Shown: positions 22,643 through 53,880 of the stretch, piece by piece
Layout of the letters: the number at the start of each line of letters is the position of its first letter
Numbering within the stretch: the stretch's first letter is position 1
DNA from: Aspidiotus rigidus
Lineage: Eukaryota; Arthropoda; Insecta; Hemiptera; Diaspididae
Reading direction: 5' to 3'
Assembly: GCA_035079385.1 (NCBI GenBank)
Contig: JAVHKY010000061.1
Span: 620,001-684,000, forward strand
Length of the DNA stretch: 64,000 nt
Made by a program: the position numbers and the translations under genes
Notes under the pieces: generated by a model
What the model was told of the DNA's origin: nothing
The model's database searches: none
Seen by the model: only the letters and a program-made list of their open reading frames with translations

Positions 22643-23982
<1,340 letters not shown>

Positions 23983-28845: not shown

Positions 28846-29909
28846 CTAGTAGTTTTCCTGATTTGTTTTTTCTTTTTCATTCAAGTACAGCTCTGCATTG
28901 CTTATCAATTTCAGCTGTTCAGCATTTCTAATAAGAGGCCAATAGTGAACATCTTGATAATACGTTAAATCAATAGTGTAACTCCCCTTTTCACTGAACT
29001 TGTAATCAATTTTTCTCATGTTTGTGAAAGCTTTGTTGACAACATGTACACAAATATTCAATGGTACACAAATACTCGTATTCAAATTGTATATCCGACT
29101 AACAGCAATAATCTCTATATGATCAGCAAAAGTGCTGAATTTTAACATACTTCTCACATACTTATTAACATTTCCCTCAATTATGTAATTTGTAAAAAGA
29201 TCTTTCTCTTTTTCAATATAGTCGATGCACTTCTTTCTAATGCTGATATAATTTTCCTTAATAAAATACAAAATTGAATGAAAAAGGCAGTCTCCATCGC
29301 CTGGAACAGGCTATGCAAAGTCTAATTCTTGCTTTTCAATAAACTAAAATCAATCATTCTTGCATTAAATTATCTACCTTTTTTGCAAAAGAAAATATGA
29401 CGTAACAATTCAGCGTTTATTTTTCAAAAATATGCAGATTACAGTCTTTTTATGACTAAATCCCTCAAGAAATGTCAAGGTTTTTCTATACAGGACAGAA
29501 GTTGTCAAACTTTCTTCTGTAAAAATTCTTATAAATAGGTATACTGAAGTACTGAGATTTCAACGTTTTACTCTCTTCAAGCGTACCTATTATACAATTA
29601 AAATGTAGAAAAAGGAAAAAAAAAAAAAAAGAAAAAGTTTGATCTTCTCATTCTGTTTATCTGAAACAAACCAAAGAAAATACAAATTAATGATCATTTT
29701 GATAAATAAGACACTTCAAAGTTATGATACATCTAGACAGTATTTGAATTGTATTACCTCATCAGCGTATTGCATTGATTAAAAGTCAAAGATATTTTTC
29801 CTACTTGGAAATTTTTTTAGATCATTTTTACACAAAACTACTTTCTCTGTAGATTCTGCGAGAAAAAACATGTCATCTGTAACAACATATTTCTGTGGTG
29901 AATTGGGTT
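28846..29909 (-). CDS. OTU-domain cysteine protease gene fragment (two exons), 3' end broken by retroelement
   Basis: Exon 1 (29909-29805) follows a long pyrimidine tract and CTCGAG acceptor and ends at a GTAGGA donor. Exon 2 starts at 29300 after CCTGTTCCAG. Both are phase 1 and join as K-F-P-S-D-G-D-C-L-F-H-S. D-G-D-C-L-F is the OTU catalytic Asp/Cys motif. Later come S-T-F-A-D-H-I-E-I-I-A-V-S and Y-Q-D-V-H-Y-W, the conserved helix and the catalytic His. OTU proteins are usually deubiquitinases. The stop now used (28846-28848) lies inside the Penelope-like insertion. Across that insertion the same frame would run a further ~15 codons to a TGA near 27160. Upstream exons were not found. It could be a host gene or part of an older mobile element. 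Confidence 0.6.
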
Positions 29910-37608: not shown

Positions 37609-38256
37609 ACAGGGAACCTGTTTTATGGGGGGTTTTTGAAAAATTTGCCGTGCGCCGTCCGCCGTCCGGCAAAAAACTTGGAAAATTCCCGACTCTCGAG
37701 CCATATATGATAGGAGGGGGACTTGGAAAAATTTCGACTCTCGAGCTATCATATATAGCTGAAGATTCGAGAAAAATTTAGACTCTCAAACTATATTATA
37801 CTAGGCTTACAGTAGGTCTAGGCCTTCTTTATACTAGCTTTATCTAGTGTTAGTATTCCATACTTGTCTAATGCTCTTCTTTACCGTGATACGGCATACC
37901 TTTGTCGCTGGACAACTATTAAAATCATATTTCCACATTTCTGTTACTTTTACGACTCAAAGCGAGAATCCGTTGTCTACCACCCAAAACCCTCGTTTTG
38001 GATCATAAAATTGTCCTTATTTATTCCTAACAATAGGGGTGATCCGACAAGATAGTCGAGTTGGTGCAACTAGATTTAATTAGCTGACTTAATACGTATT
38101 GAGGTATGTCGGTAGGATTAACTTCTTGAATCTTCGCCTTTGATCATAAAACGTCTAAACGCGTTTTGGAAATCATGTGGTCAATCGTAAAAGGGTTAAG
38201 ACGAGACAAGAACAATTTCGAGAGACGCTTCGAGATCGCTACCGAACCCCTTTTCT

Positions 38257-38301
38257 TATAAAAGCTCCTCGAAGCTAAGACAAGTAGTCAGTCAGTCAGT
38301 C
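38257..38301 (+). promoter_or_regulatory. LTR core promoter: TATA box and TCAGT initiator
   Basis: TATAAAAG at 38257-38264 lies about 31 bp before TCAGTCAGTCAGTC at 38288-38301, the arthropod initiator consensus repeated three times. This probably sets the start of R. The same site occurs in the right LTR at 47580-47624. Confidence 0.75.
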
Positions 38302-38381
38302 GTAATCTCTGAATCCAAGTCCGGACGAAGTAGCGTCAATCGCATAGTAAGAACGTATCATTTTTTGTATTTATTTCAAAG

Positions 38382-38387
38382 AATAAA
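38382..38387 (+). promoter_or_regulatory. LTR poly(A) signal
   Basis: AATAAA ~90 bp after the initiator. The functional copy for the genomic transcript would be the right-LTR one at 47705-47710. Confidence 0.65.
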
Positions 38388-38432
38388 CAATCTTTATTTC
38401 TCGTGCTCGATCGATTGGAAGCTAACATTTTT

Positions 38433-38446
38433 TGGCGCAGTCGAGG
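38433..38446 (+). promoter_or_regulatory. Primer-binding site
   Basis: TGGCGCAGTCGAGG, 5 nt after the left LTR. TGGCGCAGTCG is the type of site used by 17.6/297-like Gypsy elements, reported to be primed by tRNA-Ser. Confidence 0.75.
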
Positions 38447-39159
38447 TAGAACGAAACGCATATCCACCGGTTCTACGAAGCAGCTCTTCAGTCATCAGCA
38501 CAAAAGTGAGTTACTTTCCATTCTCTTATCCTCGTTCCTATCATCATTGTTCGAATCGCTATAATATCGCGTTTTCATTCTTTAAAATAAAATCTATTTC
38601 GTACCGCGATCATTCGTAGCGCGATCTTGAGTTTAATTTCATTTATTGTCAAAAAAAAAAAAAAATATTCGGTTGACTGACCCACCATTTACTATAACAG
38701 GTGTAAAAGACTAACGCGTTTTAAGGCGGGAAGATTTTGGAATAAATAGTTAGGTCGTTCACATAATCTCGTCGTAGGGTAACTGTTACATACCTGAACT
38801 CTCTATTTTTTTTTTTTTTTTTTCCTGTCTCCACCGTGAATAAGGCTAAGTCGTAAAATCACTTTCAGTTTCACAAGTAGGAGCATTTGTAGTTCAAGAC
38901 CAGTTAATAGGTCAGTGGAACACGGAATAGGTTGCACCCTATCTCTCTTGTCAGAGTACATTCACCTCACCTATATAGGTAGTGGTAGTTTTATTGTGTT
39001 CTTTCTTGAATAGTTATCGAATAGAGTTTGGAGCAGTTGTTGTTCTGAAATAAAGTTTTTCTTTATCTCTTCTTGGAAAAGAGTGAATTGGAGAGGTCGA
39101 TTACCCCTTCCGTTTACGGGATTGTCCCGGTTGTGTTTTACTCTATTCGATTTCATTAA

Positions 39160-39193
<34 letters not shown>

Positions 39194-39230
39194 GAGAATT
39201 TGAGGTCTGTTAAGGACATTTTGCGCAAAT
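38447..39230 (+). other. Errantivirus 5' leader with candidate splice donor
   Basis: Non-coding leader. AAAA|GTGAGT at 38506 fits a splice donor that could make subgenomic env and 3'-ORF messages. Three A- or T-rich runs are present, including about 30 A just upstream of the gag ATG (39163-39190). Confidence 0.5.
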
Positions 39231-42200
39231 ATGGATCCAATCCTTGAATTAGATGAATTTTGGGAAGTTGACGAGGAAACCTCTCAAAATGAAGAAAATG
39301 AACAAGCAGAGGAGGGAAACGATTATAAACTTCAATTTTTATCTTCCCTAATCCCCAAATCTTTTTCAGGAGTTAGAACAGAATTGAACAATTTTATAAT
39401 TAATTGTAATTCGGCTATGAAGCTAGCAAATTCGAATCAGAAAAGGGCTCTTCTGTACGTTATCTTATCTAAAATTGAGGACCCCGCCAAGTCGCAATTG
39501 CTTCATTTTACTTTTAAGACTTGGAAAGAATTAAGGGAAAAATTAAATCAGCTATATCGAACAAAAAGACATTATTCGCAATTTTTGGAGGATTTGAATA
39601 GTCTTCGGCAAAATGCTAATGAAACAGTAGTAGCTTATCACCGGAGAATTGAAGAAGCGGAATCTAAGGTCTTGAATGCTCTGAATTTGTCCACTATGGA
39701 CAAGGCTCTAAAGCCTGGGTGTATTGAAAACATAAAACAAATTGCACTGAGTCGTTTCACATTTCACTCTGCACCTGAAATTTCGAAGTTTTTACGTTGG
39801 AAAGGATACACATCACTTAATGAAGCATTAAATCCAGCTATAGAGGAGGAAATGGCTATTAATATGAGACGTGAAAAATTTGTTAAAACACCAAAACCAA
39901 ATTATCAAGGTTCTAATTCTAATAAGGGAAAATTTTGCACGTTTTGTAAACGATCAAATCACGATATAAGGTCTTGTTTCAAATACAAGGATCAACAAAC
40001 GCAAGGAAAATCAAATTTCAGAGCTAAGGTTTTTACTACAGGTAGCAAAATGGAAAATGGTCGCTCTCGTCCTGAAGGGGGCTCCAAACCCACATGTTTT
40101 TTTTGTAAAAGAGTGGGGCATATAGCATCTCAATGTGAGTTAAAGAAGGAGAAGGACGCAAAAAATAGGGACTCACGAAATTTTAGAACAAATCAGCCAC
40201 ATTCTCCCCCTGGTAACAGAAATAATACGCTTTCACGACCGGGATCTTCTGGAAATTATTTAAGTTCGACTGGGATTTATGCTTTGGATACCCTGTCAAG
40301 GAAGGCACTCATCTATGTAGAATTATTTACAGACGAAGCCATCTCAGGAAAATTAAATCTCCTACTAGACGCTGGGGCTGCGGTGACAGTCATTAAGGGG
40401 AATAGGTTAAAACCCCGAACTTGGTTTTGGTCAGATGAAAGTTTAGAGATGGTAGGAGTTGATGGAAAAAATCCAATAAAAACTTTGGGATCGGCTAACG
40501 TCTGTTTTACATTTAAACCACAAGGAGAAATTAAACACAAGGTTCAATTATTAAAAGAGGAGCATGGAGTCCCTGTTGATGGTCTCCTTGGTATCGATTT
40601 CTTCGATAAATGGGCAAGGTTTATTAATTTTGAGACAAAAGAATTAATTTTGAAGGGATGTAAGTACGGGATACCCTTCCATAGACTTGATGAGTTTGAA
40701 GAAAGGAAAAAATTTATGGAACCCATTCGAAGTAATCAGTTGTGGATCTCTCAAATTTACGTCGCTCCCCGTTCGGAAACTTTAGTTGATATAGAGGTCG
40801 AGAACCCAGAAATTGGGGAAGGAATAATTCCAGGATTACAATTAAAAGAAAATATCTTTCTTTCTCGAGCGGTAACGCGCGTAGAAGACACGGGTTATGC
40901 AAAGGCTACGTTATTAAATTTATCAAAAAACGAATATTTATACGAGACAGCCTTAATTAAGTTAGAAGAATTTCCGCAAGAACCCACAACCATTCTCCTA
41001 ACACAACCTAGCCAGGATCAGGCACCAAGTAAGGAAGAAAGGTATGAGCAGTTGAAAGAAAATTTAGATTTGTCACATTTGAACGCTGAAGAGAAGCAAG
41101 TTATTCAGTCTATCTGCCTTAAATTTCAGGATATCTTTCATCTGAAGGGAGATAAGTTGACCTTCTCCACCATAGCTAAGCATGACATTCGATTGAAGGA
41201 TGAAACTCCAATTAATATAAAAAATTATAGGCAACCTCACGCTTTAAAAGGAGAAATTAAAAAACAGGTAGATCAGATGTTAGAAGACGGAATCATTAGA
41301 CCTAGTATGTCGCCGTGGAACGCCCCTTTGTGGATTGTTCCAAAGAAGGGAGTAGATAAAGAAGGAAATAAGAAGTGGAGGTTAGTTGTCGACTATAGAC
41401 GCCTGAATGAGGTAACTATTGGACAAAGTTACCCCTTACCTCAAATTAACGAAATTTTAGAAGATTTAGGTTCGGCAAAGTATTTTACGTGTCTAGATCT
41501 AGCCAGTGGTTATCACCAACTAAAAATGGAAGAGAAAGATATTGAAAAAACTGCTTTTTCTACTATGGGAGGTCACTGGGAATTTTTGAGAATCCCTTTT
41601 GGACTCACGGGAGCACCCTCTACATTTATGAGAGCCATGCATGCATGTCTCTCAGGCCTAACGCCAGATCGAGCCATGGTTTATTTAGATGATATTATTA
41701 TCCATGCCCCCGATTTAGTCACCCACCAAGAGAAGTTACTATCAGTTTTTAAAAGGTTGAGACACTACAACTTGAAATTACAACCAGAGAAGTGTGAATT
41801 TTTAAAAAGGGAAGTTCAGTATTTGGGTCACGTTGTCAACGAGTTTGGAGTACTCCCCGACCCAGGAAAAATTGCCGTAGTTAGCGAATATCCTGCACCC
41901 TCCAAGGTTAAGGAGTTACAGGCTTTCTTAGGATTTGTGGGATATTATCGACGGTTTATAAAAAATTTTTCGGAAATTGCAAGACCTCTGACTAAGTTAC
42001 TGAGGAAGGGTGAAACATTTGAATGGGGCGAAGCTCAGGAAAAAGCATTCAACGAGTTAAAGAATTTACTTATTAGTGATCTAATATTAAAATTTCCTGA
42101 TTTTTCTAAAGAATTTATCCTCACTTGCGACGCATCAAACGCAAGTATAGGTGCAGTGTTATCACAAGGTACCCCACCAAATGATCTGCCTATAGCTTAC

Positions 42201-45200
42201 GCCAGTCGAGTATTAAATAAGGCAGAATTGAATTATTCGGTTACTGAAAAGGAACTCCTAGCAGTCATATTTGGAACAAAACACTTTCGTTCGTATCTTT
42301 TCGGTAAAAAATTTGTAATTTACACAGATCATCGCCCCCTCATTTGGTTATCGAAAGTGAAGGAGGGAGGAAACAGTAGACTCTTACGATGGAGATTGAA
42401 GTTAGAAGAGTATCAATTTGATATTTTATACCGTCCCGGGAAATCAAATCAGGTAGCGGATGCACTCAGTCGCATACCCAATCCGATAGCAACGCCTGTA
42501 CATCAATTTACAATTCTTTTGGGGCAAATTCACGACTATAAAGGGATGTTACGCGAAAATATTGCTTCTAAAGAAGAAATCAAAGTAAATATTATTAATG
42601 ATTCGGTCTTTACGAAAAAATCAATCATCCTATTTTCTGCCACCAGACCAAATGATGTAGAATTGAGGGAATTCCTGAATAAAACCAGGAAATATGGGCT
42701 AACAAAATTTCCAGTCATGCTCACTGGTCAAGCTCACCACACAAGACGTAAGGATTATAATTTAATTTTATGCGCGTATAAGGAAGATTATTATGATTCA
42801 GGAAAATATGAGGACATTTTCTCTTCTTTACAAGTAGCAAAAAATGTTGCAGAAAGGAAAGGTTTGAAGGAAATATTCATTGAAAAATTAGGAGATGTCC
42901 ATGAACGAATTAATCTCGAGAAATTTAAGGTTATCATTCACTACCTCTTTAAGGACACAAATATCAAGCCAACAATTTGCTTAAATCAGAAAATTCAGGT
43001 GAAAGAAGAGGAAAAGGAAAATTTGCTAAATTTGAATCACAGCACACCTGAAGCAGGCCACTGCGGATTTTGGAGAACTTACAATAAAATGAAAGATCTG
43101 TACATTTGGGATGATCTCAAAGGAGATATTACTGCCTATATTAAAAAATGTCACCAGTGTCAAGTAAACAAGGTAAATAGAAATCCCATTAGAAGTCCGT
43201 TAGAAATAACTACAACTAGCACTCGTCCCTTTGAGAAAATCTTCATTGATTTAGTAGGCCCATTGCCCATCACTGAACGCGGAAATAGATTTATCTTCAC
43301 TCTCCAAGACGACCTGAGTCGTTTTTCTTACGCAATACCTATTAATTCAGGGGAAGCCCTCGTCGTTGCCGAAGAATTAAACAAATTTATCTCTATTTTC
43401 GGTATCCCAGAAAAGGTGCAAAGTGATAACGGGACCAATTTTGCCTCTGAGGTTATAAAAGCCTTAATGAGAATTTACAAAATTCGACATATTTTCACTT
43501 CCTTGTATTGGCCTCGTAGCAATGGCGCGCTTGAACGCTGGCATTCGTCGTTGAAGGATTATTTAAAGCATTTTACAAGATCTACTCAGGATAATTGGGA
43601 TGAATATGTATTTCATGCAGTATTTTGTTACAATAGCCATGTCCATGCCTCAACCAAGAAAACGCCATACGAACTCGTCTTTGGCCACCCAGCTCGTGTG
43701 CCTAGCTCTATAACAACGAACCCCACGTTTCAATATACATATGATGACTATCACAGTCAATTAAAACTTCGTCTCACCAATAGTCATAGGCTTGCCAGGA
43801 AAAACCTTATAAAAAGTAAGGAAGAGTCAAAAGAGAGGTATGATCGTAGACTAAACCCTCATGATTTCCAGGAAGGCGACTTAGTATATATCAAAAATAA
43901 GTCTCATCAGGTTGGGCGCGCGAGGAAAATGGATCCAGAATATATAGGTCCTTATAGAATTCTCAAGGTGAATGACAATCATACTGTTAAGGTTAAGGTA
44001 GGTCGGAAACACAACCCCTACCATTTTGATATGTTGAGACCATGTACTGATGCGAATATAGCCGCAGATGAACGTACTCAACCTCTTACAAGGAGAAATG
44101 CAACTCGAATGAACTTAGGTCTCATTCCCATTCTTCTCTTAATTCTTGTAAACTCACCAATTGTACAGGCAGGCAACGTAAAGAACGCTATTTTTCCAAT
44201 AACTCATAAGTCAGGCATATATTTTGAGAATCTAGGCAGAGCAAAATTAACCAATTCCATCTGGAATTTTATTACCTTTCGGGATATGGATTTGTACAGG
44301 CAACGCCATGAGTTTCTAGATCAATCAATGAAAACGGTAAATGACCTTTGTCATCAAATGCAAATAAAAAATCGGACGCAGAGTTATGAATGTTATAAGC
44401 GATCCTCGTTTATTAGCACCTATAGAATTAAGTTAGAAGAAGGATATGAAAATATACAAAATTTAGTTCATCACTCTCTAAAACGAAGCAAAAGATTCCT
44501 TGACTATGGCCTTATTCCACAACTTTCAACAATTCAAAAATGGCTCACGGGTACACCTGATTCTGATGATCATAGACGTTACGATTCTTCAATAGAGAAG
44601 GTCTTAGGAGACACGGAAAATATAAGAGAGTTGGTTCGGGAGCAGTTTCACATTATAAAAAGTAGTATCCTCGATTTCAACACAACACTAGCTACTTTGC
44701 AGAATAATGAGCAAGCTCTAAAAAATAATTTTCTGGTCATAGGGAATTTTATGGAACAAACCGAGCAAAATTTAAACATGACCGTTTTGAGAGAATTATT
44801 CATCGAGAATGAATTAATTTTAACTTCAATGTTACAACAAGCTATAGAAGAGTATGACACGCTTACTACGGGCATACTCTTTGCGAAAAAAGGGATTTTA
44901 CACCCTAGTATCATAAAGCCTTCAGAACTCAGTAGAGAGTTAAGTCTGGTACAATTACCAAATGATAAAACATTTCCATTCGCAGTCGATCCGCTTTCAA
45001 TTCATACATTCATTGATCTCTGTAAAATAGATATAATTTTTACTGATCAAAATCGCCTAGTTTTCACCATACACATTCCCTTAGCACAAAATCAGGATTT
45101 TGATCTTTTCAAAATCTTACCATTTCCAGTAAGCATGAAAGATTCCCCTCTAGTTCATCGATTCATTCAACCTTCCAACGATTACTTTATTATAAATAAG

Positions 45201-46109
45201 GTACGAACTAAGAGAGCGGTGTTAAAAGATCTGAGTGTGTGCAGCGAAATTTTGGAAGGAACATTTCTCTGCCATTTAACGATCTTAGAATATACAAATC
45301 CAGAAAACAATTGCGAAACAATGTTGTTTTTAAATAAAAATGCAACTATCCCTTTCACTTGCGATGTTAAAACTATATTTTCAGAAATGTCAGTATGGTA
45401 TCCTCTTATGGGAAATCGGTGGCTTTTTAGCCTAACAAAAGGCGAAACAATTTCAATCGAATGCGTTAACAGGGAAAAAATATTGGATTTATATGCTGTA
45501 GGCACGGGTTTACTCTTTTTAGAAGATAACTGTCGAGCCTATACTTCAAATGGATTAATAATGTCTACCACAAAGTACAATCACACATATACCCATTACG
45601 TACCACTAACAGATATCGAATTAATTCCCAATACCAATACGTTCAATTTCACGCGAGGAAAACTCCAACCTATTAGAGTAACAGATTTAAATTCTAAAGA
45701 GTTAAAAGTCTTAGCGCATAAGATTGATGATTACGAAAAAATACTAGATTTACGCACCGGTCACGAACGATTGCAAGAACAAACGTCGTGGCTTGGATAT
45801 ACTATTGGGTTGTCTCTTCTTGGAGTAGGAATCTATTGGCTATTAAAATGTTGCCCAATAGTAGCGTGGTCCTTAAGTTCTCTCCTTCCATTTCTTGGCT
45901 GTTGTTTTGGGTCGCGTCCGTCAACGCAAGTAGAACAAGCCCACGAATTACTTCGCCTAAATTCCCCAGTAGTGGAACAGGTCTTAGAAGTACTTCATGG
46001 AAATTCTCCCGCCAGAAATGAAGAAGTCCCTCAACATCAGGAGTCTCCAACACCGTCAACTTCAGGACGTCCGTATCGTTTGCGGACAAGAGCAGTTAAA
46101 ATAGCGTAG
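39231..46109 (+). CDS. Gag-Pol-Env polyprotein of errantivirus, single 2,292-codon frame
   Basis: Starts at ATG 39231. Gag has two C-x2-C-x4-H-x4-C knuckles (residues 236-249 and 289-302). The protease region has D-A-G-A at 380-383, where D-S/T-G is usual. Reverse transcriptase shows L-D-L-A-S-G-Y and Y-L-D-D (818-821). RNase H has catalytic-type Asp near 967 and T-D-H-R at 1032. Integrase has an H-H-C-C finger (about 1270-1310) and D1340, D1399, E1435 (D-D-35-E). Env follows from Met 1627 with a signal-type hydrophobic stretch, a furin-type R-S-K-R at 1752-1755 before the presumed fusion region, and a hydrophobic anchor near 2188-2220. This Env resembles the F protein shared by errantiviruses and baculoviruses. 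Unlike most relatives, no frameshift or stop separates the three genes. Env may also come from a spliced message. Confidence 0.95.
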   Translation: MDPILELDEFWEVDEETSQNEENEQAEEGNDYKLQFLSSLIPKSFSGVRTELNNFIINCNSAMKLANSNQKRALLYVILSKIEDPAKSQLLHFTFKTWKELREKLNQLYRTKRHYSQFLEDLNSLRQNANETVVAYHRRIEEAESKVLNALNLSTMDKALKPGCIENIKQIALSRFTFHSAPEISKFLRWKGYTSLNEALNPAIEEEMAINMRREKFVKTPKPNYQGSNSNKGKFCTFCKRSNHDIRSCFKYKDQQTQGKSNFRAKVFTTGSKMENGRSRPEGGSKPTCFFCKRVGHIASQCELKKEKDAKNRDSRNFRTNQPHSPPGNRNNTLSRPGSSGNYLSSTGIYALDTLSRKALIYVELFTDEAISGKLNLLLDAGAAVTVIKGNRLKPRTWFWSDESLEMVGVDGKNPIKTLGSANVCFTFKPQGEIKHKVQLLKEEHGVPVDGLLGIDFFDKWARFINFETKELILKGCKYGIPFHRLDEFEERKKFMEPIRSNQLWISQIYVAPRSETLVDIEVENPEIGEGIIPGLQLKENIFLSRAVTRVEDTGYAKATLLNLSKNEYLYETALIKLEEFPQEPTTILLTQPSQDQAPSKEERYEQLKENLDLSHLNAEEKQVIQSICLKFQDIFHLKGDKLTFSTIAKHDIRLKDETPINIKNYRQPHALKGEIKKQVDQMLEDGIIRPSMSPWNAPLWIVPKKGVDKEGNKKWRLVVDYRRLNEVTIGQSYPLPQINEILEDLGSAKYFTCLDLASGYHQLKMEEKDIEKTAFSTMGGHWEFLRIPFGLTGAPSTFMRAMHACLSGLTPDRAMVYLDDIIIHAPDLVTHQEKLLSVFKRLRHYNLKLQPEKCEFLKREVQYLGHVVNEFGVLPDPGKIAVVSEYPAPSKVKELQAFLGFVGYYRRFIKNFSEIARPLTKLLRKGETFEWGEAQEKAFNELKNLLISDLILKFPDFSKEFILTCDASNASIGAVLSQGTPPNDLPIAYASRVLNKAELNYSVTEKELLAVIFGTKHFRSYLFGKKFVIYTDHRPLIWLSKVKEGGNSRLLRWRLKLEEYQFDILYRPGKSNQVADALSRIPNPIATPVHQFTILLGQIHDYKGMLRENIASKEEIKVNIINDSVFTKKSIILFSATRPNDVELREFLNKTRKYGLTKFPVMLTGQAHHTRRKDYNLILCAYKEDYYDSGKYEDIFSSLQVAKNVAERKGLKEIFIEKLGDVHERINLEKFKVIIHYLFKDTNIKPTICLNQKIQVKEEEKENLLNLNHSTPEAGHCGFWRTYNKMKDLYIWDDLKGDITAYIKKCHQCQVNKVNRNPIRSPLEITTTSTRPFEKIFIDLVGPLPITERGNRFIFTLQDDLSRFSYAIPINSGEALVVAEELNKFISIFGIPEKVQSDNGTNFASEVIKALMRIYKIRHIFTSLYWPRSNGALERWHSSLKDYLKHFTRSTQDNWDEYVFHAVFCYNSHVHASTKKTPYELVFGHPARVPSSITTNPTFQYTYDDYHSQLKLRLTNSHRLARKNLIKSKEESKERYDRRLNPHDFQEGDLVYIKNKSHQVGRARKMDPEYIGPYRILKVNDNHTVKVKVGRKHNPYHFDMLRPCTDANIAADERTQPLTRRNATRMNLGLIPILLLILVNSPIVQAGNVKNAIFPITHKSGIYFENLGRAKLTNSIWNFITFRDMDLYRQRHEFLDQSMKTVNDLCHQMQIKNRTQSYECYKRSSFISTYRIKLEEGYENIQNLVHHSLKRSKRFLDYGLIPQLSTIQKWLTGTPDSDDHRRYDSSIEKVLGDTENIRELVREQFHIIKSSILDFNTTLATLQNNEQALKNNFLVIGNFMEQTEQNLNMTVLRELFIENELILTSMLQQAIEEYDTLTTGILFAKKGILHPSIIKPSELSRELSLVQLPNDKTFPFAVDPLSIHTFIDLCKIDIIFTDQNRLVFTIHIPLAQNQDFDLFKILPFPVSMKDSPLVHRFIQPSNDYFIINKVRTKRAVLKDLSVCSEILEGTFLCHLTILEYTNPENNCETMLFLNKNATIPFTCDVKTIFSEMSVWYPLMGNRWLFSLTKGETISIECVNREKILDLYAVGTGLLFLEDNCRAYTSNGLIMSTTKYNHTYTHYVPLTDIELIPNTNTFNFTRGKLQPIRVTDLNSKELKVLAHKIDDYEKILDLRTGHERLQEQTSWLGYTIGLSLLGVGIYWLLKCCPIVAWSLSSLLPFLGCCFGSRPSTQVEQAHELLRLNSPVVEQVLEVLHGNSPARNEEVPQHQESPTPSTSGRPYRLRTRAVKIA

Positions 46110-46236
46110 AATCGCGTTTTGAACAATGTTATATATACATATATATTATTCCCCGTTTGTCTATCCATATATCTAATTCTAATCCTAAGAAACCCACTCC
46201 TTATTCCTAATTCTACTTATAACTTATGTGCATAGA

Positions 46237-46839
46237 ATGCCGGCAACGTTAGAAGAACTCGTCGTTAGCATATTCGCCCTTCGCGAATATTTGAAATATT
46301 GCTTGGTGAAGAAACCTAAATGGGGACTCTGCACATTTATCAACCTCCCCAAACCAGAGGACGAAGGCACCGAATTTCGCTTATACCACATACGCTACAT
46401 CATCGAGCGACTCCTCAATCGAGTAATATATCTACCGCAAATTAATATAACTCGCCAATCGAACAACCAGGTCCTGATTTTCACCGCTGATTCTGTCAAA
46501 TGTCCGCGAATCTACGACGAACAATTGGAGTTATTAGAGGCACTGCATCTCTTATACCGAAGCAACCTAACGGTACCTCTGATTACGAACATCCGAGACC
46601 GATGGTACGTAGAAGTCACTTCGTTCGTGACTCACTTCCAGTCAAGTTACGGCAACAGGATTGTATGCGTCCAACGCAACAATGCCTGGAATAGACTCGA
46701 GTTTCAATGTATCAAACGAGAGAAAAAACTACTGCCCGGCGTTTATTACACCCAAATCACAATACCAGACGATCCATGTGGTGATCTGTTACCGTCTGAC
46801 GACGACGATGAACCTGAATATATTCCTTTACCCTTCTAA
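46237..46839 (+). CDS. Extra 3' ORF of the errantivirus, unknown function
   Basis: Downstream of env by 127 bp and before the right LTR is an intact frame of 200 codons from ATG 46237 (no ATG further upstream in frame; a GTG lies at 46228). A pyrimidine-rich stretch and TGTGCATAG acceptor ends at 46235, two bases before the ATG, suggesting expression from a spliced RNA. The protein starts M-P-A-T-L-E-E-L-V-V, is mostly hydrophilic without a signal peptide or membrane segment, has scattered Cys and Trp, and ends in an acidic S-D-D-D-D-E-P-E-Y-I-P-L-P-F tail. I recognise no domain. Standard errantiviruses have three ORFs, so this is an accessory gene or captured host sequence. Intactness and LTR identity argue it is not decayed. 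Confidence 0.8.
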   Translation: MPATLEELVVSIFALREYLKYCLVKKPKWGLCTFINLPKPEDEGTEFRLYHIRYIIERLLNRVIYLPQINITRQSNNQVLIFTADSVKCPRIYDEQLELLEALHLLYRSNLTVPLITNIRDRWYVEVTSFVTHFQSSYGNRIVCVQRNNAWNRLEFQCIKREKKLLPGVYYTQITIPDDPCGDLLPSDDDDEPEYIPLPF

Positions 46840-47160
46840 CAGTTGTTCCCGGTTTGTAATAATTTTGTGTTTTTCTTTTTTTTATTATTTTCCTTTGTAT
46901 TCGTTACCACGAATAAGATTCTCTCCTATTGAAATCTAACGTATTAGGTATAATCAAAAAATCCCTTCATGTTCGAATTAAGTTTAATTTTCATTTTATG
47001 TATTTTTATGTCTCAATATTTGACGCATTTACTTTTTACTTTGTATATTACTATGATAATTATGTTCACAGAATGTTTATCAAACGGCGCTATTAGTTCG
47101 GACTATCCCACTTAGTAGGTGTCTTGTACTTAAATTTTTCGTTCCTCAAAATTTCATTTT
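46840..47160 (+). other. Errantivirus 3' untranslated region
   Basis: AT-rich sequence between the extra ORF and the purine tract. No further ORF or structure was recognised. Confidence 0.6.
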
Positions 47161-47170
47161 AGGGGGAAGG
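47161..47170 (+). promoter_or_regulatory. Polypurine tract
   Basis: AGGGGGAAGG immediately before the right LTR, preceded by T-rich sequence (CATTTT), as expected for the plus-strand primer. Confidence 0.85.
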
Positions 47171-47750
47171 TGTTAGTATTCCATACTTGTCTAATGCTCT
47201 TCTTTACCGTGATACGGCATACCTTTGTCGCTGGACAACTATTAAAATCATATTTCCACATTTCTGTTACTTTTACGACTCAAAGCGAGAATCCGTTGTC
47301 TACCACCCAAAACCCTCGTTTTGGATCATAAAATTGTCCTTATTTATTCCTAACAATAGGGGTGATCCGACAAGATAGTCGAGTTGGTGCAACTAGATTT
47401 AATTAGCTGACTTAATACGTATTGAGGTATGTCGGTAGGATTAACTTCTTGAATCTTCGCCTTTGATCATAAAACGTCTAAACGCGTTTTGGAAATCATG
47501 TGGTCAATCGTAAAAGGGTTAAGACGAGACAAGAACAATTTCGAGAGACGCTTCGAGATCGCTACCGAACCCCTTTTCTTATAAAAGCTCCTCGAAGCTA
47601 AGACAAGTAGTCAGTCAGTCAGTCGTAATCTCTGAATCCAAGTCCGGACGAAGTAGCGTCAATCGCATAGTAAGAACGTATCATTTTTTGTATTTATTTC
47701 AAAGAATAAACAATCTTTATTTCTCGTGCTCGATCGATTGGAAGCTAACA
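47171..47750 (+). repeat. Errantivirus right LTR (580 bp)
   Basis: Same length and, as read, same sequence as the left LTR. Ends CTAACA followed by the target duplicate CTAG. Confidence 0.95.
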
Positions 47751-51679: not shown

Positions 51680-53880
51680 ATTCTAAACAAAAGTCGTTTT
51701 ATGATAACTGTAAGCAAAATAAACACGAATGCGAGAGCATAAGATAAGCGAAAAAAAAGATAGAAAGAAAGATGTGTTTGCTATGAACGAGGAAATCAAA
51801 GTGTCGAGAGAAAATAAAAATACGGGGGCGCGATCGATTTGGCGCGGACAATTTGGCGCGAGAGTGAATTTGGCGCGGGGTTCAATTTGGCGCAAACCTC
51901 AAAAAACAACGTAGTAAGACAATCCGAAGTCTAATAATGAAATTTGACAGCAAGAATACATAATCAGGGATTATGAGCTATGCCCCGGAGGTATTCTATA
52001 TGCGTGCGATTGTTGTAATCACGCACAATTCGCGAGATACGCTCGTCAGTATTTTGGTACTTCGTTTTTTTCCTCGCAGGTGGAGCTCCCGCTTCTCCCT
52101 GCGTATATTCTAAATCTCGTGCTTTTTGGCATTTTCTCAACATGGTTATAAAATTCCAAACTGTCGGATGACAGCAACCGAATTCGACGTCTAATTTCCG
52201 ATGAGCCGCTTCCGCGTAATTGTTGGTGCGCGGCTCACTGCTTAGCGTCCTCTCGTAAACATTCCACCAACCTATTGGAAACCTTGTTACCTTCCTTCCC
52301 CGTCTCGTCCGTCGACCAACGTAGTAATCCTCAATATAGTCAAGAACAGGATCTAGTTGTAGGTCGACATACTCTTGCAAATCTTCAAATGCTTCCGCAA
52401 CGTCAGTGGGTGGGATGAAGGCTAACGCGATAATCATTCGCACATGAAGATTTAAATTTGGGTTATTGGAATACAAGGACCGCAAGTGCGATGAATTGAC
52501 CTTCTTTTGGACATTCTGAGAAAAATGGAACAGGCAGCCTCCAATCGCACTAGAAGGAAAAACTCGCGTTACTTCATTGATTACAGCTGCTTCGAAATCA
52601 CAGGAAAATAAACGCTCCTTATCATCAACTCCCATGGATTCTATCGCTTCAAACATTCGCGCGTAAGTTTGAGAAGTTTTATTACGTAGTAAAGCGTATA
52701 GAAGCGGATGACAGGCACCGTATCGCATTCCAAAAATCACGAACACTTGATAAAATAAATTTGGCGTGATATCGAAAGTGCCGTCGGCATGCCAAACTTG
52801 ACACGAATTCAATATCTGCGAAGCGCGAGGTCGACCGAAAATCAATATTCTATCTGCTGAGGGTCCGGAATCGTACTGCAGAAATGTTTCGCTTACTCCT
52901 GGAGAAGGACAATAAGTAGTGAAATCGTGAGGAATTATGAGATCTACAAGGGATGTAGGATTCGCGGGAGCTTTCCGTCCTTTTTTCCCTACGCGACGAA
53001 CACGCTGCTTTAGAGCACTTTTGCTCGGTAATGCTCCTTGTGATGCTTCACAATCCATTTCCAGCTCGTTAGAGATAACCACACTCGTAGGCTCCACCGT
53101 TTCTACAGGCCGTCGCTTCATTCCCGTGACAGCCGTAAAGGCTTGCACTTTGCCAGGGTTCGGCGCGTGCGTGTGCTTATTCAGTTCTTTCGTTACTTCA
53201 CCATTTTTTTCATGTAGCCGAGCTCTGCAAATATTTTTCTGCTCACAAAGCCAAAATCGTGTTACCTGTCACCTGTACCACACACATGTTGATAATTTCG
53301 ATGACGAGAGATATTAAAATATAATAATAATAATTACAGTACTACACGTACTTCGTCAACGCTACGTCTGTCCATTACGAACATGAAACCCTTATGCGCG
53401 AGTTTTTCTCGGCCTCTCTCAGATATCAACTCCATTTTTACAACAAAAAAATAACTCCAACAAAACTGCTACAGAATTATTACAAATCAACAGGTCACCA
53501 GCTCTTGTTTGATACTGAATATTACACTTCAATAAAATTGATAAAACATTTCTACTACCTACTTAAGATGAAATATGTTATGCTTGTTCATTCATGCACT
53601 AACAGAGACGACATTACATTATACTCATCAAAGTTATCTAAGAATCGCGCTGCCGAAATAATTACCGCTGAGATTATTTGCAGGGAAAATTTTTTACGAC
53701 AAATTCCAGTGCCCAATCGATCCGTGCGCCAAATCGATCTTCGCGTCAAATTGTCCACGCCAAACTGTCCGCGCCACATCGTCCGCGTCAAATCGATAGC
53801 TACCCGAAATACGAAAGAAAATTTAATGAACTAGGCGAACAAGTCGCAAGAGGAAAAGTGTCAAAGAATAGGTCATGAAC
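51680..53880 (-). mobile_element. MULE with FLYWCH-type transposase and subterminal tandem motifs
   Basis: A transposase gene is bracketed by inverted arrays of an ~18-bp motif. The left array (51828-51895) reads ATCGATTTGGCGCGGACAAT-TTGGCGCGAGAG..., and the right array (53705-53810) has its inverse (GCGCCAAATCGAT, GCGTCAAATTGTCC, CCGCGCCACATCGTCC). The outer boundaries are approximate. It sits inside a diverged foldback element. Confidence 0.65.
51964..53268 (-). CDS. MULE transposase with partial FLYWCH finger
   Basis: The frame is open from 53268 to the stop at 51964. The first in-frame ATG is near 53121. Upstream of it the frame still encodes R-F-W-L-C-E-Q...C-R-A-R-L-H...H-T-H-A-P, the second half of a FLYWCH zinc finger. 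A TGA at 53269-53271 cuts the finger after V-W-Y-R, so either the finger is mutated or an intron acceptor is used. The transposase domain shows W-H-A-D-G-T-F, S-C-D-F-E-A-A, G-G-C-L-F-H-F-S-Q and R-T-N-N-Y-A-E-A-A-H-R-K-L, the order of the MULE D-D-E domain. It would cut and paste its own element by binding the terminal repeats. The ~390-435 codons are otherwise intact, so this may be a recently active source. Confidence 0.82.
   Translation of the reverse strand, partial: QVTRFWLCEQKNICRARLHEKNGEVTKELNKHTHAPNPGKVQAFTAVTGMKRRPVETVEPTSVVISNELEMDCEASQGALPSKSALKQRVRRVGKKGRKAPANPTSLVDLIIPHDFTTYCPSPGVSETFLQYDSGPSADRILIFGRPRASQILNSCQVWHADGTFDITPNLFYQVFVIFGMRYGACHPLLYALLRNKTSQTYARMFEAIESMGVDDKERLFSCDFEAAVINEVTRVFPSSAIGGCLFHFSQNVQKKVNSSHLRSLYSNNPNLNLHVRMIIALAFIPPTDVAEAFEDLQEYVDLQLDPVLDYIEDYYVGRRTRRGRKVTRFPIGWWNVYERTLSSEPRTNNYAEAAHRKLDVEFGCCHPTVWNFITMLRKCQKARDLEYTQGEAGAPPARKKTKYQNTDERISRIVRDYNNRTHIEYLRGIAHNP

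Follow-up and report, generated by a model that had tools for sequence, protein, structure and literature searches.

Descriptions of insect errantiviruses list gag, pol and env, and the question raised by the present locus is whether an element of this type carries a fourth gene behind env that is kept by selection, which would mean a retrovirus-like complexity of its own in this lineage. The window, i.e. the whole stretch of 64,000 nucleotides from Aspidiotus rigidus that was analysed, contains a young element of Ty3/gypsy type (37848-47750) with a further open frame, ORF4, between env and the 3′ LTR. We asked whether this frame is real, whether it is maintained, how it might be expressed and which known systems it resembles.

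Materials and methods

The host genome (441 Mb, 102 contigs) was subjected to two six-frame searches, with ORF4 and then with the protein of its most diverged copy (L011) as queries. It was also searched with env, and 30 env loci were taken for the comparison of post-env regions: 21 inspected loci (L041-L061) and nine copies of the window element. Values of dN/dS were calculated according to Nei-Gojobori between the ORF4 of the window and its diverged copies; 1000 neutral simulations per comparison served as the null.

Results

Architecture of the element

The features of the element are collected in Table 1. The LTR repeat was computed at 581 bases and read as 580-bp TG...CA LTRs with the CTAG target duplication. 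A sequence-only reading of the locus had called the element very young, and the identity of the two LTRs bears this out. Together with the TG...CA LTRs and the short target duplication, the order of gag followed by RT-RNaseH-integrase and a baculovirus-F-like env (Baculo_F PF12259, E 1.7e-42) are the errantivirus features present. The Pfam matches, obtained with the large frame searched in four pieces, were Retrotrans_gag, RVT_1, RT_RNaseH, Integrase_H2C2, rve and Baculo_F, and none was found for a protease.

Gag, pol and env share one open frame with neither frameshift nor stop between them; such a single frame is unusual among errantiviruses. For this reason ORF4 is physically the second long ORF, and the earlier designation "fourth ORF" does not describe the physical order. 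The primer-binding site is presumably a match to tRNA-Ser. ATG does not occur at all in 38260-39230, whereas 941-nt stretches outside the element contain on average 15.5 (minimum 6). It should be added that the leader has a run of 28 A at 39163-39190, about 40 nt upstream of the gag ATG, and that a short frame from the ATG at 44098 overlaps the putative env ATG at 44110.

Elsewhere in the window we observed an AG dinucleotide repeat of about 200 copies (23089-23488), a frame with a match to OTU-like cysteine protease (28849-29310, minus strand) and a frame with a match to MULE transposase and a weak, below cut-off match to a FLYWCH zinc finger (51967-53268, minus strand).

Table 1. Features of the window element and diverged ORF4 copies of the host genome (slashes mark proposed exon boundaries).
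Feature	Position	Strand	Remarks
5′ LTR	37848..38427	+	580 bp, TG...CA; identical to 3′ LTR; CTAG target duplication on left
Leader without ATG	38428..39230	+	primer-binding site TGGCGCAGTCG... five bases after LTR
Proposed splice donor AAAA/GTGAGT	38506..38507	+	top-ranked in leader and rank 3 among the 419 GT sites of 38290-47169 (generic splice matrix)
gag-protease-RT-RNaseH-integrase-env, one frame	39231..46109	+	2,292 codons; Pfam on four pieces
Proposed splice acceptor CATAG/AATG	46234..46235	+	CTAAT branch-point-like sites; 44-nt AG-free zone
ORF4 (candidate fourth gene)	46237..46839	+	200 codons ATG to stop; C-terminal LPSDDDDEPEYIPLPF
Polypurine stretch AGGGGGAAGG	47161..47170	+	directly before 3′ LTR; read from sequence
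3′ LTR	47171..47750	+	580 bp; identical to 5′ LTR
Diverged ORF4 copy L009			78-80% identity; cut after codon 121
Diverged ORF4 copy L010			73-77% identity; one frame break
Diverged ORF4 copy L011			46-47% identity; open 194 codons, then polypurine stretch and LTR start

The ORF4 frame and its predicted product

The intact frame of about 200 codons that had been noticed between env and the right LTR was confirmed. It starts 127 nt after the env stop (46107-46109), ends 331 nt before the 3′ LTR, differs in frame from gag-pol-env and measures 216 codons from stop to stop. Its length is not due to chance, since frames of at least 200 codons were almost never reached by shuffling: in none of 2000 rounds when 46110-47169 was dinucleotide-shuffled, and in one of 2000 when ORF4 was shuffled with 50-nt flanks. 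The codon periodicity was equalled by 1/2000 shuffles and by 20/5000 stop-free random frames. In codon usage ORF4 departs from gag-pol-env: a codon score trained on the large frame did not favour ORF4 (-0.03 bits per codon), its own frame being the best of six.

No domain was found above the cut-off in Pfam, NCBIfam returned none of note, the best PHROGs match had E 0.3, and a sequence search of the PDB gave no match; both the lack of a recognisable domain and the acidic tail agree with the sequence-only reading. ORF4 would thus encode a protein family without known relatives in the databases searched here. The protein starts with MP, has a highest 19-residue hydropathy of 0.91 and no transmembrane segment, and we propose a soluble product of about 24 kDa in which a basic body is joined to an acidic tail that has a conserved short motif at its end. 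An internal repeat in ORF4 was considered and was not supported, all profile comparisons of half versus half lying within the null.

Genomic copies of ORF4

The genome contained 14 matches to ORF4, ten with 100% protein identity and four from the three diverged copies; the second search revealed no further locus. The DNA that follows the LTR differs among the ten copies, which represent two nucleotide versions of ORF4. The 45 nt just upstream are identical in nine of them, L002 being off by one base. The large frame is full in eight (2,301 codons from stop to stop), has 2,046 codons in another and is cut in front in the last.

Two C20 copies, L041 and L043, have an env 97% identical and are without ORF4. 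They looked like counter-examples, but we read both as insertions that had been truncated and not as loci with a decayed ORF4: in L041 unrelated DNA begins 16 nt past the env stop, and in L043 the env match stops at residue 433. As a separate observation, L010, L011 and a further locus, L014, lie within about 18 kb (G000:C31:2213500-2231500) as broken errantivirus pieces (ORF4, env and a 92% LTR) in one orientation, and this cluster could be a piRNA-cluster-like graveyard.

Selection on ORF4

The dN/dS of ORF4 was 0.075 for L009 (120 codons) and 0.159 and 0.071 for two pieces of L010, values which are rough because dS is near saturation. The amino-acid differences were fewer than in any neutral simulation, with 24 against a null minimum of 39 in L009, 14 against 16 and 31 against 44 in the pieces of L010, and 100 against 125 in L011, where synonymous sites are saturated. 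None of the 1000 simulations for L011 stayed free of stops, as against 74 of 1000 for L009 and 402 and 5 of 1000 for the pieces of L010. These comparisons show purifying selection between subfamilies and are strong evidence that ORF4 is a maintained gene. In L009, the env showed dS of 0.5-1.1 and dN/dS of 0.05-0.13 and ORF4 a dS of 1.5, both near saturation, which we take to mean that ORF4 and env descended together.

A distant relative and the tail motif

A profile of four ORF4s, compared with 5.8 billion proteins, had a single match, P0005 (189 aa, E 6.3e-41, 42% identical). Its only contig is a JGI metagenome contig of 4,661 bp. P0003, a 68% relative of the window env, is likewise on a JGI metagenome contig of 4,661 bp, and the equal size and source make it very probable that the two adjoin on one contig. 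ORF4 thus appears to evolve faster than env, the C-terminal motif excepted. This motif, LPSDDDDEPE(Y/F)IPL, is identical at 13/14 positions between the window ORF4 and P0005, compared with 77/186 overall (P 5e-5, for a motif chosen after the alignment had been seen). Shorter forms, SDDEYIPFPF and SDDEFILLPL, occur in L010 and L011, and the frame of L010 continues after the motif beyond the position of the window ORF4 stop.

The ten copies with identical protein, the purifying selection and the relative in another sample all support the earlier notion of a maintained extra gene. Copies lacking ORF4 or decaying randomly there had been named as evidence that would tell against it; this was checked, and the outcome spoke for the gene.

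Proposed expression and its alternatives

Our preferred reading, which on the comparisons above we regard as highly probable, takes ORF4 for a true accessory gene that an env-carrying errantivirus expresses by way of a singly spliced subgenomic RNA. We infer splicing and translation as follows: the donor at 38506 of the ATG-free leader would be joined to the acceptor at 46235 directly before ORF4, yielding a singly spliced message in which the AUG of ORF4 would be the first, and in the diverged relatives the AUG would be put together at the junction (A/TG).

ORF4 is therein probably switched on by splicing. The stronger argument comes from comparison: in all three diverged copies the YAG is followed by TG (L009 CATAG/TGCCG, L010 CACAG/TGCCG, L011 CGCAG/TGTCG), so that an ATG in the conserved frame would result if the leader exon had A as its last base, as at the proposed donor of the window element. 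By insect-type features (a CTAAY branch-point-like site with an AG-free zone), which were chosen after the site had been seen, the acceptor is one of two among 237 YAG sites in the element, whereas the generic matrix ranks it 159th of 571. The sequence-only reading had placed an acceptor two bases before the ATG; the comparison of diverged copies upholds this acceptor and the generic matrix does not, and its AG ends one base before the ATG.

The alternative that survives best, which we nevertheless consider unlikely, is that ORF4 is real and dispenses with the proposed splice, its translation from the full-length or env RNA relying on reinitiation or an internal entry site. The weak rank of the acceptor speaks for it, and the window ORF4 has a complete ATG of its own, though ATGs at 46126 and 46226 intervene between the env stop and ORF4. 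An in-frame ATG stands shortly before the acceptor AG in L009 and L010, so that splicing is not needed for their start codon and only L011 is without one; since this ATG is present in L010 and not in L009 alone, we weighed splicing lower and translation without it higher. The preservation of YAG/TG in all three diverged copies is at odds with this alternative, as is L011, the frame of which (206 codons) is constrained although it contains no Met codon. P0005 begins with Val and has its only Met at position 48.

It is very improbable that ORF4 is a recently captured host exon, open only through the youth of the element; a captured host exon was among the options of the sequence-only reading. 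The third-position GC of ORF4, 0.505, does exceed the maximum of 0.395 across 2092 200-codon stretches of the large frame, and its CpG observed/expected ratio is 1.43 versus 0.88. However, the contrast in composition is not unique, with GC of 0.47-0.49 in the last 200 nt of env and CpG of up to 1.39 in 600-nt stretches of the large frame. Recent capture is already contradicted by the presence of ORF4 in an ancestor shared by subfamilies whose synonymous sites are nearly saturated, by its relative in an element from another sample and by the two six-frame genome searches, in which all matches were retroelement copies and no host homologue was found. Finally, a functionless chance frame in a young element, the LTR identity of which implies little decay in the window copy, has a negligible probability, being contradicted by the shuffles, the purifying selection and the distant homologue P0005.

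Post-env frames in other env families

Env had at least 64 matches in the host genome. Besides ORF4 (family F1), three env-bearing families, F2, F3 and F4, carry different post-env frames. Frames of about 200 codons or more were seen behind env at L044-L053, L058-L060 and L014/L055 (before the 3′ LTR); L057 and L061 had no post-env frame of 100 codons in the retrieved flank. In F2 (env 39-41%), CTTACAG/CATG precedes the frame, which measures from its ATG 237 codons in four of nine loci and 222, 213 and 72 in one each; for the other two the retrieved stretch did not show this ATG, and one of them has a match some 4.6 kb beyond. The F2 copies are not independent evidence, as those aligned are 97-99% alike. 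F3 (env 25%) has a frame of 203 codons in all three loci (98-99% alike), and the single copy of F4 (env 38%) has one with one in-frame stop behind CTTTCAG/AATG.

Pfam gave no match for the post-env frames of F2, F3 and F4 and none above the cut-off for the relatives of ORF4. Profile comparison showed F2 and F4 to be related (E 2e-6), and F3 was not significantly similar to either. Homology of ORF4 with F2, F4 or F3 was not supported, since pairwise profile comparisons were not significant; against a combined F2/F4 profile ORF4 scored 17.7, barely more than the 17.6 reached by the best of 60 shuffles, and the alignment was out of register.

We tentatively raise the possibility that this host harbours errantiviruses of the complex-retrovirus kind, in which several env families would each have a fast-evolving, spliced post-env gene engaged in an arms race with a host defence, for example the piRNA pathway. 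These genes might all go back to a single ancient accessory superfamily, the proteins of which would combine a two-part alpha-beta-alpha-beta-beta body with a tail that is acidic or bears a short motif.

Discussion

If the splicing is true, a start codon built by the splice itself would be part of the complexity of this lineage. Counter-defence and RNA handling are the viral functions for which ORF4 is a concrete candidate. The roles weighed in the sequence-only reading, as a suppressor of silencing or a trafficking factor, are conjectural. More specific is a speculative and rather doubtful scheme in which the body would bind RNA and the tail recruit a host factor, the protein aiding the viral RNA or blunting host silencing.

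In Drosophila errantiviruses and insect endogenous retroviruses (ZAM, gypsy and the springer subclade) env is made from spliced RNA, and in the springer subclade it starts via an AU dinucleotide exon, the start codon being made by splicing, according to the available sections of PMC12992720. The window element shares with them the LTRs, gag-pol and the baculovirus-F-like env, and springer env shares the principle of start by splicing proposed for ORF4. It differs from them by a single gag-pol-env frame and a further candidate gene, whereas their env is the third ORF and no fourth is described in those sections (PMC12992720). In the literature covered, including the accessible parts of PMC13172572 and PMC2774666, and the Chary and Hayashi survey (eLife 108449) aside, we found none announcing an errantivirus gene that lies after env and before the 3′ LTR.

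Accessory ORFs under purifying selection occur in Metaviridae as sORF1 and sORF2 of the mdg1 group, the latter downstream of pol in some Lepidoptera, and in this ORF4 is like them (excerpts of PMC11952523). However, mdg1-group elements are without env, and sORF2 has 63-107 aa and is transmembrane and myristoylated (same excerpts), while ORF4, with 200 aa, a position behind env, a start with MP and no transmembrane segment, does not have the properties of sORF2 or a FAST-like fusogen. The ORF3s of bdelloid rotifer LTR retrotransposons, mostly replacing env, encode a GDSL esterase, a DEDDy exonuclease or an env-like protein, as given in the available text of PMC5408684; ORF4 and its relatives differ from such enzymes in having no Pfam-detectable catalytic domain. 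Searches limited to gag, pol and env would miss genes of the ORF4 type.

Complex vertebrate retroviruses have accessory genes behind env (nef, pX, WDSV orfA), which are spliced from a leader donor and evolve fast. They belong to a different virus family, and neither PDB sequence search nor Pfam above its cut-off relates ORF4 to them. ORF4 has the feature of a retroviral-type accessory gene, a frame of its own that follows env, precedes the 3′ LTR and is kept by selection, and it resembles nef, pX and WDSV orfA in this position, in its apparently fast evolution and in the proposed splice from a leader donor.
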